Shown one piece after another: positions 5,727 to 10,390 of a DNA stretch of 12,978 nt. Position numbers and translations under genes: made by a program. Origin of the DNA: Nitrospirota bacterium (GTDB lineage Bacteria; Nitrospirota; Nitrospiria; Nitrospirales; Nitrospiraceae); assembly GCA_005877535.1 (NCBI GenBank), contig VBOM01000179.1, positions 1-12,978 of the forward strand. The letters run 5' to 3'. The notes below the pieces were generated by a model. The model made no database searches, had not been told where the DNA came from, and saw only the letters and a list, made by a program, of their open reading frames with translations. How positions within the stretch are numbered: the stretch's first letter is position 1; each line of letters starts with the position of its first letter.

Positions 5727-5995
5727 AGGAAAGGTTGGGAGAAAACTGAGCAGTTACAACAATTAGCGCTGGGACAGATTCAAGGCCTAGGAAATCCTGG
5801 GGCAATCTAGCCTGCCAGCGACAAAAGCGCCTCAATACAAAAGAGTTATCAATGGGTTAGGACCGACCTCTCTCTGGGCTTGCAGGGTGTAGAACAGCAA
5901 TGCCGACCTGCCTGAAATCCAATGGTCCGCATGTCTGGGGCAACAGACACGATCTCTTAGGAGCGCCGCGCGTGATGGGCGAGACAAAATGGGAA

Positions 5996-6048
5996 TCCAA
6001 TCCGTCCATGTCGCGCCTTTCTCGCATGTCTCGCGCTTCACGCGCCAC
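5996..6048. repeat. Dispersed 53-base repeat, copy 1
   Basis: The segment from TCCAATCCGTCCA to TCACGCGCCAC matches 8779-8831 at 50 of 53 positions without gaps, in the same orientation, while the flanks do not match. Both copies are intergenic. The repeat is GC-rich and rich in CGCG/GCGC words. Read on the minus strand, both copies could encode an Arg/Asp-rich peptide (ARDMRERRDMDGLD in this copy), but no gene structure supports that. Confidence 0.8.
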
Positions 6049-6303: not shown

Positions 6304-6472
6304 GTCAGGTGACGCTGCTAGGGCTGCACGAAGGAATCTTTGCCCTCCGTTATGTGCTCCAGACAAGCTAGTTCCCAGCACAGGATGGCGGTGTGTGGTC
6401 ATGACCGAGTCCGGAGATCTGGCCTCGAAGAGGAAGTCCTGTGCAAGTTCGCCCTTTCCTACGATGACGGCG

Positions 6473-6835
6473 ATGTCGCAGGGTGGGGGTGACAGGGATC
6501 TCTTCCTGAAACGCAGCCGCGACATCGAGTATGCTAAGAAGCACGGCAGTCGTATCTCGACCGCCCTATTTACTCTGGTGATTTGCCGGACTGATGTAAG
6601 GGACAGCCGGGTCGGTATCGTGGTGGGGAAGCGATTCGGGGGAGCGGTCAGCCGAAATCGGGTGAAGCGCCTCTTTCGGGAGCTCACGCGGCAACTGCGC
6701 GGTCAATTGCTCCCTGGACACGCCCTTGTGGTCTTTCCCAAGCGGGATTCGATTGCTCAACCATTTGCCGTCTTGAAAGAGGTGTGGTTGTCGGCGCTCC
6801 AGCGCCAACGACTGCTTCATATCCATGAGGACTAG
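6473..6835 (+). CDS. rnpA: Ribonuclease P protein component
   Basis: RnpA is the protein partner of the RNase P ribozyme, which matures the 5' ends of tRNAs. From ATG 6473 the product is 120 residues, the usual family size. It shows FLKRSRDIEYAKKHG near the N-terminus, the central RVGIVVGKRFGGAVSRNRVKRLFRE (the conserved RNR-x-KR-xx-RE RNA-binding helix), and a C-terminal LPGHALVVFPKRD segment. The start is uncertain because no clear Shine-Dalgarno precedes any candidate. The frame is open back to GTG 6395 (146 residues), with ATGs at 6401 and 6464. I prefer 6473 because family members have only a few residues before the FLKRSRD-like motif. The 3' end overlaps the yidD start by 11 bases. The gene looks intact. 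Confidence 0.9.
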   Translation: MSQGGGDRDLFLKRSRDIEYAKKHGSRISTALFTLVICRTDVRDSRVGIVVGKRFGGAVSRNRVKRLFRELTRQLRGQLLPGHALVVFPKRDSIAQPFAVLKEVWLSALQRQRLLHIHED

Positions 6836-7231
6836 CGTGCGCCATTGGTGTCGGACCCTGCTTGCCGGTCGCCGCAATTGGATCTCGGCTTTTCTAGGAG
6901 CCTGTCCAACATTGCCGTTCGTGACGAGGCCAAGGAGGTGCGGCCAGATGCGAGGCCGCAGGCCTGGAAAAACCGGAGGTGTATTCGCTGGAATACGTAG
7001 AGGATTTTTTCTGGCCGAGAACGACGCAGATGGTCGCGAATCGTTCGCCGTAGTAGAAAGGTCAATGTCAGACAGGCTCCTTGGGCCAGCCGCCCTTCTG
7101 AGGCGATCTGCTCTGAATATGCGAGGGCTGCAATCAGCCGGTACGGAATGCCGCCTAGACACAAGCTTGCGATCTGCCGTCTGCTGAAATGTGACCCGTT
7201 TCTTCGGGGAGGAATGGATCCTGTGAAGTAG
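6825..7231 (+). pseudogene. yidD: Membrane protein insertion efficiency factor YidD, split by a palindromic insertion and frameshifted
   Basis: YidD is a small inner-face membrane protein thought to help YidC-dependent insertion. Its 5' part starts at ATG 6825, overlapping the end of rnpA, and reads MRTSVRHWCRTLLAGRR then NWISAF. A 186-base palindromic element (6896-7081) follows. Removing it exactly joins TTTCT to TGGGCCAGCC and restores F-L-G-P-A, the family's conserved SPLLGP-like motif. The 3' part, ICSEYARAAISRYG then CRLLKCDPFLRGGMDPVK and TAG 7231, is clearly YidD, but it is in a frame that requires loss of one base between 7089 and 7109. The conserved C-R-F before the CSEYA motif has also changed. 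The combination suggests a decayed gene. The element itself (62 codons) keeps the frame open, so only the 1-base loss finally destroys the frame. As read, the frame from 6825 ends at 7187 with an unrelated tail. Confidence 0.85.
6896..7081. mobile_element. 186-base imperfect palindrome (MITE-like or repetitive palindromic element) inserted in yidD
   Basis: The outer ends are inverted repeats: AGGAGCCTGTC, two mismatches, then a matching run including ACATTG (6896-6914 against 7063-7081). The exact centre, between 6988 and 6989, is a perfect hairpin GTATTC-GCTG-GAATAC (6981-6996). Every position x pairs with 13977-x without any gap. Further matches are GGCC (6961-6964) with GGCC (7013-7016), AAAAA (6968-6972) with TTTTT (7005-7009), and CCA/TGCG (6944-6952) with CGCA/TGG (7025-7033). 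Pairing stops exactly outside 6896 and 7081. No target-site duplication is obvious. It encodes no transposase, so it would need a helper in trans. One reading frame through it has no stop. It is probably repeated elsewhere in the genome. Confidence 0.85.
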
Positions 7232-7270
7232 TAGGGTCACAATTGTTCACATCGGGGTAGCGGTTTATTT

Positions 7271-7345
7271 ATGGACAAACGCGTTGTCATTTTTCTTGTT
7301 CTGTCGTTAGCGATCATCGTGGGGTTTCATCGGAACAAACGGTGA
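7271..7345 (+). pseudogene. yidC: Signal-anchor fragment of YidC, out of frame with the body
   Basis: ATG 7271 starts MDKRVVIFLVLSLAIIVGF, the typical basic-plus-hydrophobic first transmembrane segment of Gram-negative YidC. After GF the frame reads HRNKR and stops at TGA 7345. The body of yidC resumes in another frame at about 7327 (SSEQTVTIETDLV). Family members normally have a longer linker between these two parts, so the simplest explanation is a deletion, not a multiple of three, that removed the linker. The spacing from the yidD stop (39 bases) is normal for this operon. Confidence 0.75.
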
Positions 7346-8775
7346 CGATTGAAACGGATCTGGTTCGGGTCGGTCTGTCGAATCGTGGCGGAGTGATTCA
7401 GAGTTGGGAGCTGAAGCGATACCACACGGCACCCCCCGAAAAGAAGCCGGTGCAACTCGTCTATCAGGGGGGAAAGTTCAAAGGTCCACTATCGATTACG
7501 GTAGCGAATCCCGAGATCGACAAGACGATTCGAGAAGGCCTCTATGGAATTGAGAAAGATTTCACGATTCTCGATGCTGCTCATCCTGTCGGGCATGTCA
7601 CGATGCAGTTCCACGATTCAGCCACCCATCTCGGCGTAGAGAAACGGCTGACCTTTCATCACGATAGTTACGTGGTGGATGTGTCGGTCGACTTGGAGGG
7701 GGTGACCGAACCCTATGATGTCGGGTTGGGGACTAACTTCGGTATCGTGGAATGGGGTAGTGGGTTCATCGGTGTGATCGGATCTGCCTGGCGGGTTGAC
7801 GACAAAATAGAAAAAGAGACGCCAGAAAAAGAGCTTGAGCGGAAGGGGACAGTTCAGTGGGTCGTATTGCACGATAAGTACTTTATATCGGTATTGATGC
7901 CGAAACAGGCTACGGGCGTGCTGGCCAAGAACGAAGGCGAGAAGATCGTGTCGGCTGGGGTGCGAATGGCCGCGTCAGGCGGCGCGTCATCGGTTGGTCT
8001 TCAACTCTACGCAGGCCCGAAGGAGCACGACTCGCTCCGCTCGTTGAACGTGGGCCTGGAAGAGATGATCGATTTCGGATTCTTCATCTTCGGCAGCTGG
8101 GCTGTTGTGAAGGCGGTCGCCAAGCCGATTTTTTATGTGCTGCGATTCATCCATGGGTATACCTATAACTATGGGGTCACCATCGTCCTGTTAACGGTGG
8201 CGATCAAGCTGTTATTTGCGCCGTTGCAATACAAGAGCTACAAGTCGATGAAAATGATGCGGGTGATCCAACCCAAGATTGCTGCAGTCCAGGAGAAATA
8301 CAAGGGTGACCGCGACCGTCTGAACAAAGAGTTAATGAAGCTGTATAAAGATCAGAAAGTGAATCCGCTGGGCGGCTTTCTCCCGATGATCCTGCAGATG
8401 CCGGTCTTCGTGGCCCTGTTCAATGTCCTCTACACGACGATCGATTTGCGCCAAGCCCCTTTCATGCTCTGGATTACCGATTTGTCGGTGCAGGATCCCT
8501 ACTATGTATTGCCGATTATCATGGGGGTGACGATGTTTATCCAACAGAAGATCACGCCCACCACGATGGATCCGACCCAGGCGAAGATCATGTTGGTGCT
8601 CCCGGTAGGCATGACATTCCTGTTCGTTAATTTTCCTGCGGGCCTTGTGTTGTATTGGCTCACGAACAATACCCTGACCATCTCCCAACAATTGCTCACG
8701 GATCGTTTTGTGTTTCGCAACCACAAGGCATTCATCTCGGCAGGGGCCGAGCAGAGCGGCAGCCCGAACGCATAG
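7342..8775 (+). CDS. yidC: Membrane protein insertase YidC (body, lacking the in-frame first transmembrane segment)
   Basis: YidC inserts and folds inner-membrane proteins, alone or with SecYEG. The open frame from GTG 7342 gives 477 residues. Residues 1-240 are the periplasmic P1 beta domain. Five hydrophobic segments follow at about 246-268, 276-296, 345-366, 386-402 and 416-440. The cytoplasmic loop has KMMRVIQPKI and YKDQKVNPLGGFLPMILQMP. The conserved positive residue of the hydrophilic groove is probably Lys289 (AIKLLFAPLQ). LRQAPFMLWITDLSVQDPYY and FPAGLVLYW complete the signature. The C-terminus is not strongly basic. The signal anchor lies in another frame (7271-7345), so GTG 7342 is unlikely to be the natural start. 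Without an anchor, the P1 domain would need another way across the membrane. YidC is generally essential, which favours a sequence error or an unrecognised start here. Confidence 0.9.
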   Translation: MTIETDLVRVGLSNRGGVIQSWELKRYHTAPPEKKPVQLVYQGGKFKGPLSITVANPEIDKTIREGLYGIEKDFTILDAAHPVGHVTMQFHDSATHLGVEKRLTFHHDSYVVDVSVDLEGVTEPYDVGLGTNFGIVEWGSGFIGVIGSAWRVDDKIEKETPEKELERKGTVQWVVLHDKYFISVLMPKQATGVLAKNEGEKIVSAGVRMAASGGASSVGLQLYAGPKEHDSLRSLNVGLEEMIDFGFFIFGSWAVVKAVAKPIFYVLRFIHGYTYNYGVTIVLLTVAIKLLFAPLQYKSYKSMKMMRVIQPKIAAVQEKYKGDRDRLNKELMKLYKDQKVNPLGGFLPMILQMPVFVALFNVLYTTIDLRQAPFMLWITDLSVQDPYYVLPIIMGVTMFIQQKITPTTMDPTQAKIMLVLPVGMTFLFVNFPAGLVLYWLTNNTLTISQQLLTDRFVFRNHKAFISAGAEQSGSPNA

Positions 8776-8778
8776 GCG

Positions 8779-8831
8779 TCCAATCCGTCCACGTCGCGCC
8801 TTTCTCGCATGTCGCGCGCGTCACGCGCCAC
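8779..8831. repeat. Dispersed 53-base repeat, copy 2
   Basis: This segment differs from 5996-6048 at only three positions (8792, 8814 and 8820) and has no gaps. It begins 4 bases after the yidC stop codon. Its right end forms half of a GC-rich stem-loop with the bases that follow. The occurrence of two near-identical copies in one 13-kb window suggests a genome-wide family. Confidence 0.8.
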
Positions 8832-8843
8832 GGTGCGTGGCGC
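8825..8843 (+). terminator. GC-rich stem-loop between yidC and mnmE (possible weak terminator)
   Basis: GCGCCAC (8825-8831) and GTGGCGC (8837-8843) form a perfect 7-pair stem around a GGTGC loop. A short T-run (8852-8855) comes 8 bases later, too far for a classic intrinsic terminator. It could weakly attenuate transcription, stabilise the yidC mRNA end, or simply be part of the repeat copy that overlaps it. Confidence 0.35.
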
Positions 8844-8885
8844 TGGCGGACGTTTTATCAGCATCCTGCCAGTGAAAGAGTCGTC

Positions 8886-9314
8886 ATGCATGGAGGACTC
8901 GAAGACACGATCTGTGCCATTGCCACCCCCATAGGGGAGGGCGGCATTGGAATCGTTCGTCTGAGTGGCCCTCACGCGCTTGTCGTCGCTTCCCGAGTTG
9001 TTCGGTTGCGGTCTGGTGATCCCCTCTCATCGGTTCCCTCTCATACGCTGCATCTAGCAGACCTTGTGACTCCCACATCCGATAAGCGGAAAGAGGAAAG
9101 AGCCCTTCATCACCGCCTGCCCGTATCAGGCCTGCTCGATGAGGCGCTCGTGGTCTATATGAAGGCTCCGCGGTCGTATACGGCAGAGGACGTGGTGGAG
9201 ATCCAGTCTCATGGCGGGGCCTTGGTGCTTGGGATGGTTTGCAAGGTCTGTATTGAGTCCGGTGCAAGGATGGCGGAGCCGGGAGAGTTTACGAAGCGGG
9301 CCTTCTTGGGATAG
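8886..9314 (+). pseudogene. mnmE: MnmE, N-terminal part, frameshifted by a 77-base duplication
   Basis: MnmE works with MnmG to place carboxymethylaminomethyl groups on wobble U34 of tRNAs. The N-terminal formyl-tetrahydrofolate-binding domain is encoded here. ATG 8886 gives MHGGLEDTICAIATPIGEGG, then IGIVRLSGP and VVEIQSHGGALVLG, which match the family start well. The longer open frame upstream runs through the dispersed repeat and is not expected to be coding. After [11 protein letters not shown] the frame meets a tandem duplication, reads LG and stops at TAG 9314 (142 residues). Deleting one 77-base copy joins this part in frame to the C-terminal part, giving a normal 475-residue MnmE. The Shine-Dalgarno is weak (AAAGAG). 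Confidence 0.88.
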
Positions 9315-9381
9315 TTTGCAAGGTCTGTATTGAGTCCGGTGCAAGGATGGCGGAGCCGGGAGAGTTTACGAAGCGGGCCTT
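9228..9381. repeat. Exact head-to-tail 77-base tandem duplication inside mnmE
   Basis: Positions 9228-9304 and 9305-9381 are two adjacent copies with no spacer. They differ only at 9236 (G) and 9313 (A). The flanking bases do not match on either side. Because 77 is not a multiple of three, the second copy shifts the frame. The G-to-A change in copy 2 lies in the TAG stop (9312-9314) that ends the first mnmE fragment. The duplicated stretch encodes the conserved region up to [11 protein letters not shown]. Confidence 0.95.
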
Positions 9382-10390
9382 TCTCAACGGGCGGTTAGAT
9401 CTTTCTCAGGCGGAAGCGGTACTCGATACAATCAGGGCCACATCATCCGTGGGATTGAATATCGCTCAACGCCAGCTACGGGGGGATCTCGCTCGTGAGG
9501 TGGAACAGGCTCGGACCTCTCTCCTGACGGTGCTGAGCCATGTGGAGGCTGGGATCGATTTCGTGGACGAAGATATTTCCTTTCTGAAACGCGATGAACT
9601 GGTGCGTATCGTGAAAGCGGCCTGTGCGGTGGTTCAGAAACTGGAAGCAACGGCGCGGGAGGGGCGGATCCTGCGGGAAGGGGCGCGCGTCGTCATCCTT
9701 GGCTGCCCGAATGTCGGCAAGTCCAGCTTGTTGAACTGTCTCCTGAGAGAAGAGCGGGCGATTGTGACTGCCATTCCTGGAACGACGAGGGATGTGATTG
9801 AGGAATCCATCAATCTTGACGGGGTGATGATTCATTTGCTTGATACGGCAGGAGTGAGGGAAACGGACGATATCATCGAACAGGAAGGGATCAAACGGAC
9901 GCGTGCCGCACAAGACGAGGCCGACCTCTTATTAGTGGTGGTGGATGGGAGTGTGCCCCTCACGGGCGATGATCGAAAGCTCTTGACTGCGGCCAGGGAT
10001 CGCAAGCATCTGGTGCTGCTGAACAAAGCGGATCTTGCCGTTACTGTGGAAAGAGATGCCGCGCTTGCGGGCCATCTGGTGTATGTTGTTTCAGCTAAAA
10101 CAGGGTTGGGGGTGGAGATGGTGAAGTCGGCTCTTCGCGCTCAGCTGGTGTCCGAGGGCTTTGAAGCAGCGGAGAGTTTCACGGTGACGAACGTGCGACA
10201 TCGGGACTCGTTGCGCCTGGCTGGTGAATCCTTGGGCCAGGCTCTTGAGTCCGTGCGCTGTGGGATGGCTGGGGAACTTGTCTCGATCGATGTGCGCGCC
10301 GCAGCCGACGCGCTCGGAGAAATCACCGGCGCCATCACGACGGACGAGATCCTTGGTCGGATCTTTTCAGAATTCTGTATCGGCAAGTAG
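9347..10390 (+). CDS. mnmE: MnmE, C-terminal part: helical domain and GTPase domain
   Basis: From ATG 9347, which lies inside the second copy of the duplication, 347 residues are open: [19 protein letters not shown] and onward. The part encodes the helical domain and the inserted G domain: [12 protein letters not shown] (119-130, P-loop), AIPGTTRD (142-149, G2), DTAGV (166-170, G3) and NKAD (226-229, G4). It ends with the invariant C-terminal FCIGK, whose Cys is needed for the modification. If translated alone it would lack the folate-binding and dimerisation domain, so tRNA modification would fail even if GTP hydrolysis remained. The mnmG start follows 13 bases after the stop, as expected for the mnmE-mnmG pair. 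I regard it as one half of a broken gene, not an independent protein. Confidence 0.9.

Follow-up and report, generated by a model that had tools for sequence, protein, structure and literature searches.

The window analysed here, a 12,978-nucleotide stretch of a Nitrospirota draft genome, carries a palindromic element in the place of yidD, between rnpA (positions 6395-6835) and yidC (7342-8775), both of which are confirmed by Pfam. The palindrome at 6896-7081 is real yet imperfect. The initial annotation described gap-free pairing over 93 positions per side, and a scan of arm pairing found the single centre (x + y = 13977), the absence of gaps and the sharp end of pairing on both sides as stated, but only 56 of the 93 positions per arm are complementary; the runner-up centre within the window gives 44 pairs and the mean over centres is 23.4 (sd 4.3). 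Clean pairing comprises the outer 11 and 6 pairs and an inner hairpin of 6-7 bp, with the remaining arm interrupted. The folding energy lies 7.1 sd below that of dinucleotide shuffles for DNA and RNA alike (0 of 200 shuffles were equally low), and a search of the window against Rfam at the gathering threshold returned no matches.

Across copies, the fixed ends of the element are GGAGCC, starting at 6897, and GGCTCC, ending at 7080; the A and T at the two extremities of the 186-base palindrome lie outside them and form part of the dinucleotides at the flanks. Our preferred reading of the 186 net bases is a TA dinucleotide (6895-6896, unstranded), which we take to be element-borne, plus a 184-bp MITE, GGAGCC...GGCTCC (6897-7080, unstranded), delimited by 22 near-full-length genome copies, their alignment and a size class of 183-184 bp. 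The MITE is bounded by 18-bp terminal inverted repeats, each with one mismatch to GGAGCCTGTCCGACATTG, on the left at 6897-6914 (forward strand) and on the right at 7063-7080 (reverse strand). Inside lies a hairpin module, or core, common to other palindromic repeat families (6944-7034, forward strand; row L001:1549-1639 of alignment A1 and model R1), with the central hairpin GGAGGTGTATTCGCTGGAATACGTAGAGG at 6975-7003 (forward strand). The TT at 7081-7082 (unstranded) is read as the target dinucleotide, part of a CTT codon of yidD; the empty yidD junction reads CTTG in G006 and G008, two of the nearest relatives.

What is left of yidD is a 5' part (6825-6894, forward strand), placed by alignment to relatives and by the uninterrupted frames of L211 (75 aa) and L215 (66 aa), and an out-of-frame 3' remnant (7083-7232, forward strand; the end is approximate, inferred from the length of the L211 frame). 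Removal of the 186 bases gives TTTTCTTGGGCC (F-L-G-P), and G006 and G008 have the identical CTTGGGCC at the joint. Excision had been expected to rebuild the F-L-G-P-A motif, and the motif is indeed restored, but the frame is still lost: the window's yidD is one base shorter than its relatives near 7092, about 10 bases downstream of the joint. Because this missing base leaves the frame broken after excision, we read the gene as a pseudogene.

Some part of the yidD region is matched in all 32 genus genomes. Loci from 29 relatives were compared at the site, and the joined flanks align across it without the element in 19 (71-87% identity), none of which has TA at the junction; the remaining 10 failed to align across it. 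The segment could instead be native to YidD, or an assembly artefact, and its 186 net bases do form 62 stop-free codons through which an ORF (6825-7187) reads. That ORF has no Pfam match, the site is continuous in the 19 relatives, and the genome has 21 more near-full-length copies at other places; we regard this explanation as refuted and scarcely credible.

Two further repeats were observed in the window. mnmE is broken by a near-perfect 77-bp tandem duplication (9228-9381; 99%) into one frame with TrmE_N (8655-9314) and another with the remainder (9347-10390); the duplication either arose recently by mutation or reflects a fault in the assembly. A 60-base direct repeat (5989-6048 and 8772-8831; 90% identical) perhaps represents another dispersed repeat family.

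Distribution of the family and insertion sequences with the same ends

The host's own draft genome (2.33 Mb, 505 contigs, 79.8% complete) contains at least 22 near-full-length copies, the window copy counted, with 40 of 53 BLAST candidates scored; the others are 75-92% identical to the window copy by BLAST. Partial copies are also present, and weak matches in this genome cover mainly the interior. An alignment of 23 copies fixes the ends as GGAGCC...GGCTCC. Matches at E ≤ 1e-5 were found in 37 of 61 genomes (own and relatives) and at E < 1e-40 in 24 of the 32 genus genomes, generally from 13 scored candidates in each genome. In named genomes, the 18-base end occurs at no fewer than 112 loci, 106 of which are labelled Nitrospira, Nitrospirae or Nitrospiraceae among the matches listed. 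The hairpin model was run on five of the six otherwise-labelled genomes (all but L176, labelled Gammaproteobacteria): four had no match, and a Pyrinomonadaceae MAG had three, on contigs of 3.6-3.7 kb, which are possibly contamination.

Searches of plasmids gave no match to the 184-bp element or to a second, U-type family (see below), phages gave no match, and no viral contig had the hairpin pattern. The 18-base end was seen once in a viral contig, IMGVR_UViG_3300022200_000097 (L183:6387-6404). In the open literature, no title among those listed describes the 184-bp family, and the papers listed for its motif strings appear unrelated by title. The available text of a paper on palindromic multicopy sequences in Geobacter bemidjiensis (PMC2996986) contains none of the searched motif strings, and the available parts of PMC5767232 and PMC12306157 offer nothing further on the family. 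The element is short, non-coding and dispersed and has fixed 18-bp terminal inverted repeats, as expected of a MITE, and there is good support for assigning it to a new Nitrospira MITE family whose ends are of IS1182 type.

When the ends were paired in 201 loci, with repeats of one place retained, the pairs fell into classes of 183-184 bp (81 pairs), 131-132 bp (9 pairs) and about 1.6 kb. The 131-bp class has identical ends around a different interior. L118, L139, L172 and L175, and likewise L202, contain ISs of 1585-1619 bp that have these 18-bp ends and CTA...TAG flanks. Transposase frames were located by eye in the first four; that of L139 is open (487 aa), while those of L172 and L175 are in pieces. 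The family and domain scan, which covered L139 alone, scored its transposase at 362.9 bits against NCBIfam NF033551 (IS1182; cut-off 270) and identified the Pfam domains DDE_Tnp_1, DDE_Tnp_1_6 and DUF772. The L202 transposase is 75% identical to that of L139, and the others are similar by eye. The four transposase loci of the genus are L202 (perfect ends, in G014), L203 (variant ends, in G005), L205 (one variant end) and L204, where no matching ends were found. All six ISs, L203 included, are flanked by CTA...TAG, that is TA/TA, so that a one-sided TA is seen in MITEs only.

The initial annotation's description of a mobile, non-autonomous palindromic element has thus held up: the further copies, empty sites and transposase with the same terminal repeat that it proposed to look for were all found, the copies in the own genome (22) and in relatives (37 of 61 genomes match, the own one included), the empty yidD site in 19 of the 29 relatives, and the transposase genes within ISs of about 1.6 kb, of which the one tested is of the IS1182 family. 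Its qualifier "recently mobile" is borne out only in part: 28 of 112 insertions have two perfect ends, but the window copy has one mismatch per end and lies in a gene that has decayed further.

An IS1182-type transposase was detected in 5 of the 61 genomes at E ≤ 1e-20 and, at the same threshold, not in the host's own draft genome (79.8% complete). Given this distribution, the MITEs are mostly partnerless today, or the partner lies in unassembled DNA. MITE and IS pieces compared by eye have nothing obvious in common past their ends, and movement of the MITE in trans by an IS1182-family transposase is suggested by the shared ends only. An IS5-type transposase (PF13340) had been considered as the partner; it is present in 10 of the 32 genus genomes and absent from the host's own, and it was dropped once IS1182-type ISs with the same ends turned up.

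In two loci, paired MITE copies bracket a segment (L089:3147-4118 and L093:1431-2764), the former with a cupredoxin-like open frame recognised by eye; these are possible composite transposons.

Flanking dinucleotides and a candidate mechanism of insertion

A first set of 112 insertions with distinct flanks (set size classes; at most eight end mismatches in total) comprised 58 with TA on both sides (TA/TA), 45 with TA on one side and 9 with none. Removal of false pairings (in L077 and L172) and of poor ends (L020, L109 and L176), with at most four mismatches per end, left 107 insertions: 57 TA/TA, 42 one-sided (27 left, 15 right) and 8 with none. A separate sample of 107 under slightly different limits gave 56, 42 and 9, and the 28 insertions with perfect ends gave 18, 9 and 1. 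Orthologous copies of one insertion (L060, L089, L149 and L166) are counted separately in these figures. This is apparently one insertion site in four genomes (L060:2383-2440, L149:3898-4081, L089:3147-3330 and L166) with similar one-sided or non-TA flanks, and the own-genome copy there is cut down to 58 bp.

The end base G deviates in 7 of 214 cases, while the outer Y is C in 155 and T in 43. Because the end G is kept while the outer Y varies, we place the start of the fixed end at GGAGCC, and a 4-bp CTAG duplication was rejected on the same grounds. For ISPse1, which is of IS1182 type, the table in PMC3281130 gives 4 bp. L105, with TA on neither side, has CTAG in its one relative.

Empty alleles were then compared. 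Those of TA/TA copies have TA in 12 of 12 cases at five sites (four at L042, one at L043, two at L046, four at L078 and one at L122, the last aligned at 74% identity), and a sixth TA/TA copy, L008, has TG in the single alignable possible empty allele. Six one-sided sites, where the same place is counted once, lack TA in every empty allele: L001 (yidD; 0 of 19), L007 (0 of 7; CGA in six genomes and CAA in one), L034 (0 of 26, at a gappy site), L039 (0 of 5), L119 (0 of 1) and L132 (0 of 1, gapped within five bases of the junction). L001 shares its non-TA flank with the two closest empty alleles; for L007, L034 and L039 this flank matches at least one empty allele, and in L119 and L132 there is no exact match. 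By contrast, TA does occur among the empty alleles of two other one-sided sites, in 1 of 6 genomes for L003 and in 1 of 1 for L151 (gapped within five bases of the junction), and flank mutation therefore accounts for some one-sided cases. Excluded from the comparison were the rows of L022, L053, L137, L143 and L202, whose junctions are poor or gapped, and those in which the relative has the element or other repeats at the place. For L006, L036, L005, L015, L099, L131, L152, L156 and L162, no spanning empty allele was found with joined-flank queries, which covered 1256 of 1958 and 1561 of 1820 bases.

At most of the one-sided sites compared, the target dinucleotide thus appears to have been kept once and a TA added. 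Since empty alleles have TA at five of six TA/TA sites and lack it at six of eight one-sided sites, it is likely but not proven that the TA is borne by the element and inserted without target duplication. The initial annotation had proposed a check for target duplications, which would agree with TA/TA in 57 of 107 insertions, but nearly half lack matching flanks and the empty sites suggest that TA/TA consists of a target TA plus one borne by the element. The same MITE could still insert with an ordinary 2-bp target duplication, the one-sided flanks being later mutations of TA/TA or NN/NN, and both the predominance of TA/TA and the TA in empty alleles of L003 and L151 are in keeping with this. 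Ten of the 28 copies in which all 36 end bases are perfect nevertheless lack TA on at least one side; the TA positions deviate at 15.7% per base compared with 3.6% in the ends (in a sample biased to one perfect end); the six one-sided sites have no TA in any empty allele; and identical non-TA pairs are rare (CA/CA twice and TG/TG once among 107). We consider duplication a serious but doubtful alternative. Replacement of a target inverted repeat was rejected, as no bases are lost at the junctions of yidD, L007, L042, L046 and L078, except for the one absent close to the yidD joint.

With considerable confidence, we explain the family as a MITE that an IS1182-family DDE transposase mobilises in trans, with an element-borne TA and the hairpin as a passenger. 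The transposase would bind the 18-bp ends GGAGCCTGTCCGACATTG and insert the MITE at Y-NN-R sites, CTAG being preferred. The excised element would keep the TA of its donor flank (2 nt) on each 5' end, and these ends would be ligated at a target with a 2-bp stagger, replacing fill-in from the target. The strands of the resulting heteroduplex, TA-element-NN and NN-element-TA, would then be separated by replication, yielding daughters in which one flank is TA and the opposite one the target dinucleotide; where the target was TA, both flanks would be TA. Relative to the orientation of the hairpin, TA lies on one side in 19 cases and on the other in 18 (112-insertion set), an absence of polarity that the replication model predicts.

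The internal hairpin module

The module at 6944-7034 is common to a second family of about 120 bp, the U-type, with the form GCAGGATGCTCAAAAAG...CTTTTTCAGCATCCTGC-TA. Its TA flanks are polar (15 of 23 on the 3' side, 2 of 23 on the 5' side), suggesting that it moves differently from the 184-bp family. At L037, around 1497-1502, a 184-bp copy lies exactly at a CTAG formed by a U-type 3' end. A REP/REPIN-type repeat, mobilised through recognition of its hairpin by a single-strand transposase (Y1, RAYT), would account for the many copies, the imperfect hairpin and the polar U-type flanks. Y1_Tnp, however, occurs in 11 of the 15 chosen genomes that carry the hairpin and in 7 of the 11 chosen without it, and is absent from the host's own genome, G001, G070 and G088, all hairpin-rich, and the ends of the 184-bp family match a DDE-type IS. 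As a general explanation it is very improbable, being disfavoured for the 184-bp family, though it may apply to the U-type.

When 41 hairpins of the two families are aligned, 19 pairs are formed at 94.2%, 13 of them changed on both sides, and two G-U pairs are retained in 36 rows. The covariation score is 0.495; shuffles give 0.173, none of 500 scoring as high, and sliding gives no more than 0.131. The rows were chosen by centre pattern and by hand and the structure was derived from the same alignment, so part of the pairing follows from this choice, unlike the compensatory changes of the outer stem. At E ≤ 0.001, with 36 candidates scored in each genome, the covariance model R1 has matches in 53 of the 118 Nitrospirota genomes searched. 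In distant families, where many R1 matches are weak (30-55 bits), the hairpin recurs under wholly different outer arms. In G088, the hairpins of L243, L253 and L262 include CGTAGCGCTGCTACGCC, 17 bases of the central palindrome of a Geobacter metallireducens element. Hairpin copies are clustered at spacings of about 140-170 bases in these three loci and in L265 (G070), both genomes being distant Nitrospirota, and other-armed palindromes (ATTATTCATGA...TCATGAATAAT and similar) surround a related GCGTAC centre at L038:1400, L072:7644, L079, L099 and L154.

The compensatory changes in 13 of the 19 pairs, the covariation, the two retained G-U pairs and the presence of CGTAGCGCTGCTACGCC would also suit a regulatory RNA or transcription-processing hairpin, with selection, beyond mobility alone, explaining the spread. 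This is unlikely, since the yidD copy sits within a gene and the 131-bp class combines the same ends with a different interior. The latter comparison also indicates that the hairpin is dispensable for movement, and we think that the module is a passenger that may be kept for its folded shape. More tentatively, we propose an IS1182-type element that ligates its own donor dinucleotide without duplication, together with a phylum-wide, portable hairpin core that swaps terminal repeats.

An unexplained palindrome thereby becomes a large natural data set on IS1182-type end joining, with about 100 insertions, for some of which empty alleles exist. The analysis also brings to light a hairpin of conserved shape that is common in an environmentally important phylum and whose window copy matches no curated RNA family; otherwise the element is a mobile element of known kind.

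Comparison with known palindromic and IS1182-family elements

ERIC, REP and BIME repeats are dispersed imperfect palindromes. The Nitrospira element is scattered in the same way but has IS1182-type ends and no association with a Y1 transposase. Geobacter metallireducens has a 24-member "short RNA element" family (PMC2700814), of which 17 central-palindrome bases recur within hairpin copies of a distant Nitrospirota genome; the comparison is by central palindrome rather than full alignment, and the family is presented in the relevant part of that paper without a claim of mobility. Rickettsia palindromic elements, described in PMC10969869 as being of about 150 bp and in-frame within genes, resemble the 186 stop-free net bases found here, but the yidD of the window is read as dead, its frame lost downstream, and the likeness is one of description rather than sequence.

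Other parallels come from the IS1182 family itself. Methanosarcina acetivorans has IS1182-family MITEs of 160 and 169 bp with the partner ISMac2 (PMC3852290), which are likewise short and non-autonomous with inverted repeats of about 25 bp (columns as read). Their host belongs to another domain and their direct repeats are listed as 4 and 0 bp, and again they are likened by description and not by sequence. IS1272 of Staphylococcus, also of the IS1182 family, is described in PMC5678879 as making newly found insertions without target-site duplication, and a transposase of this family inserting without duplication fits the mechanism proposed for Nitrospira. IS1272 differs in replacing a target inverted repeat, whereas the Nitrospira yidD junction loses nothing and the target would be Y-NN-R.
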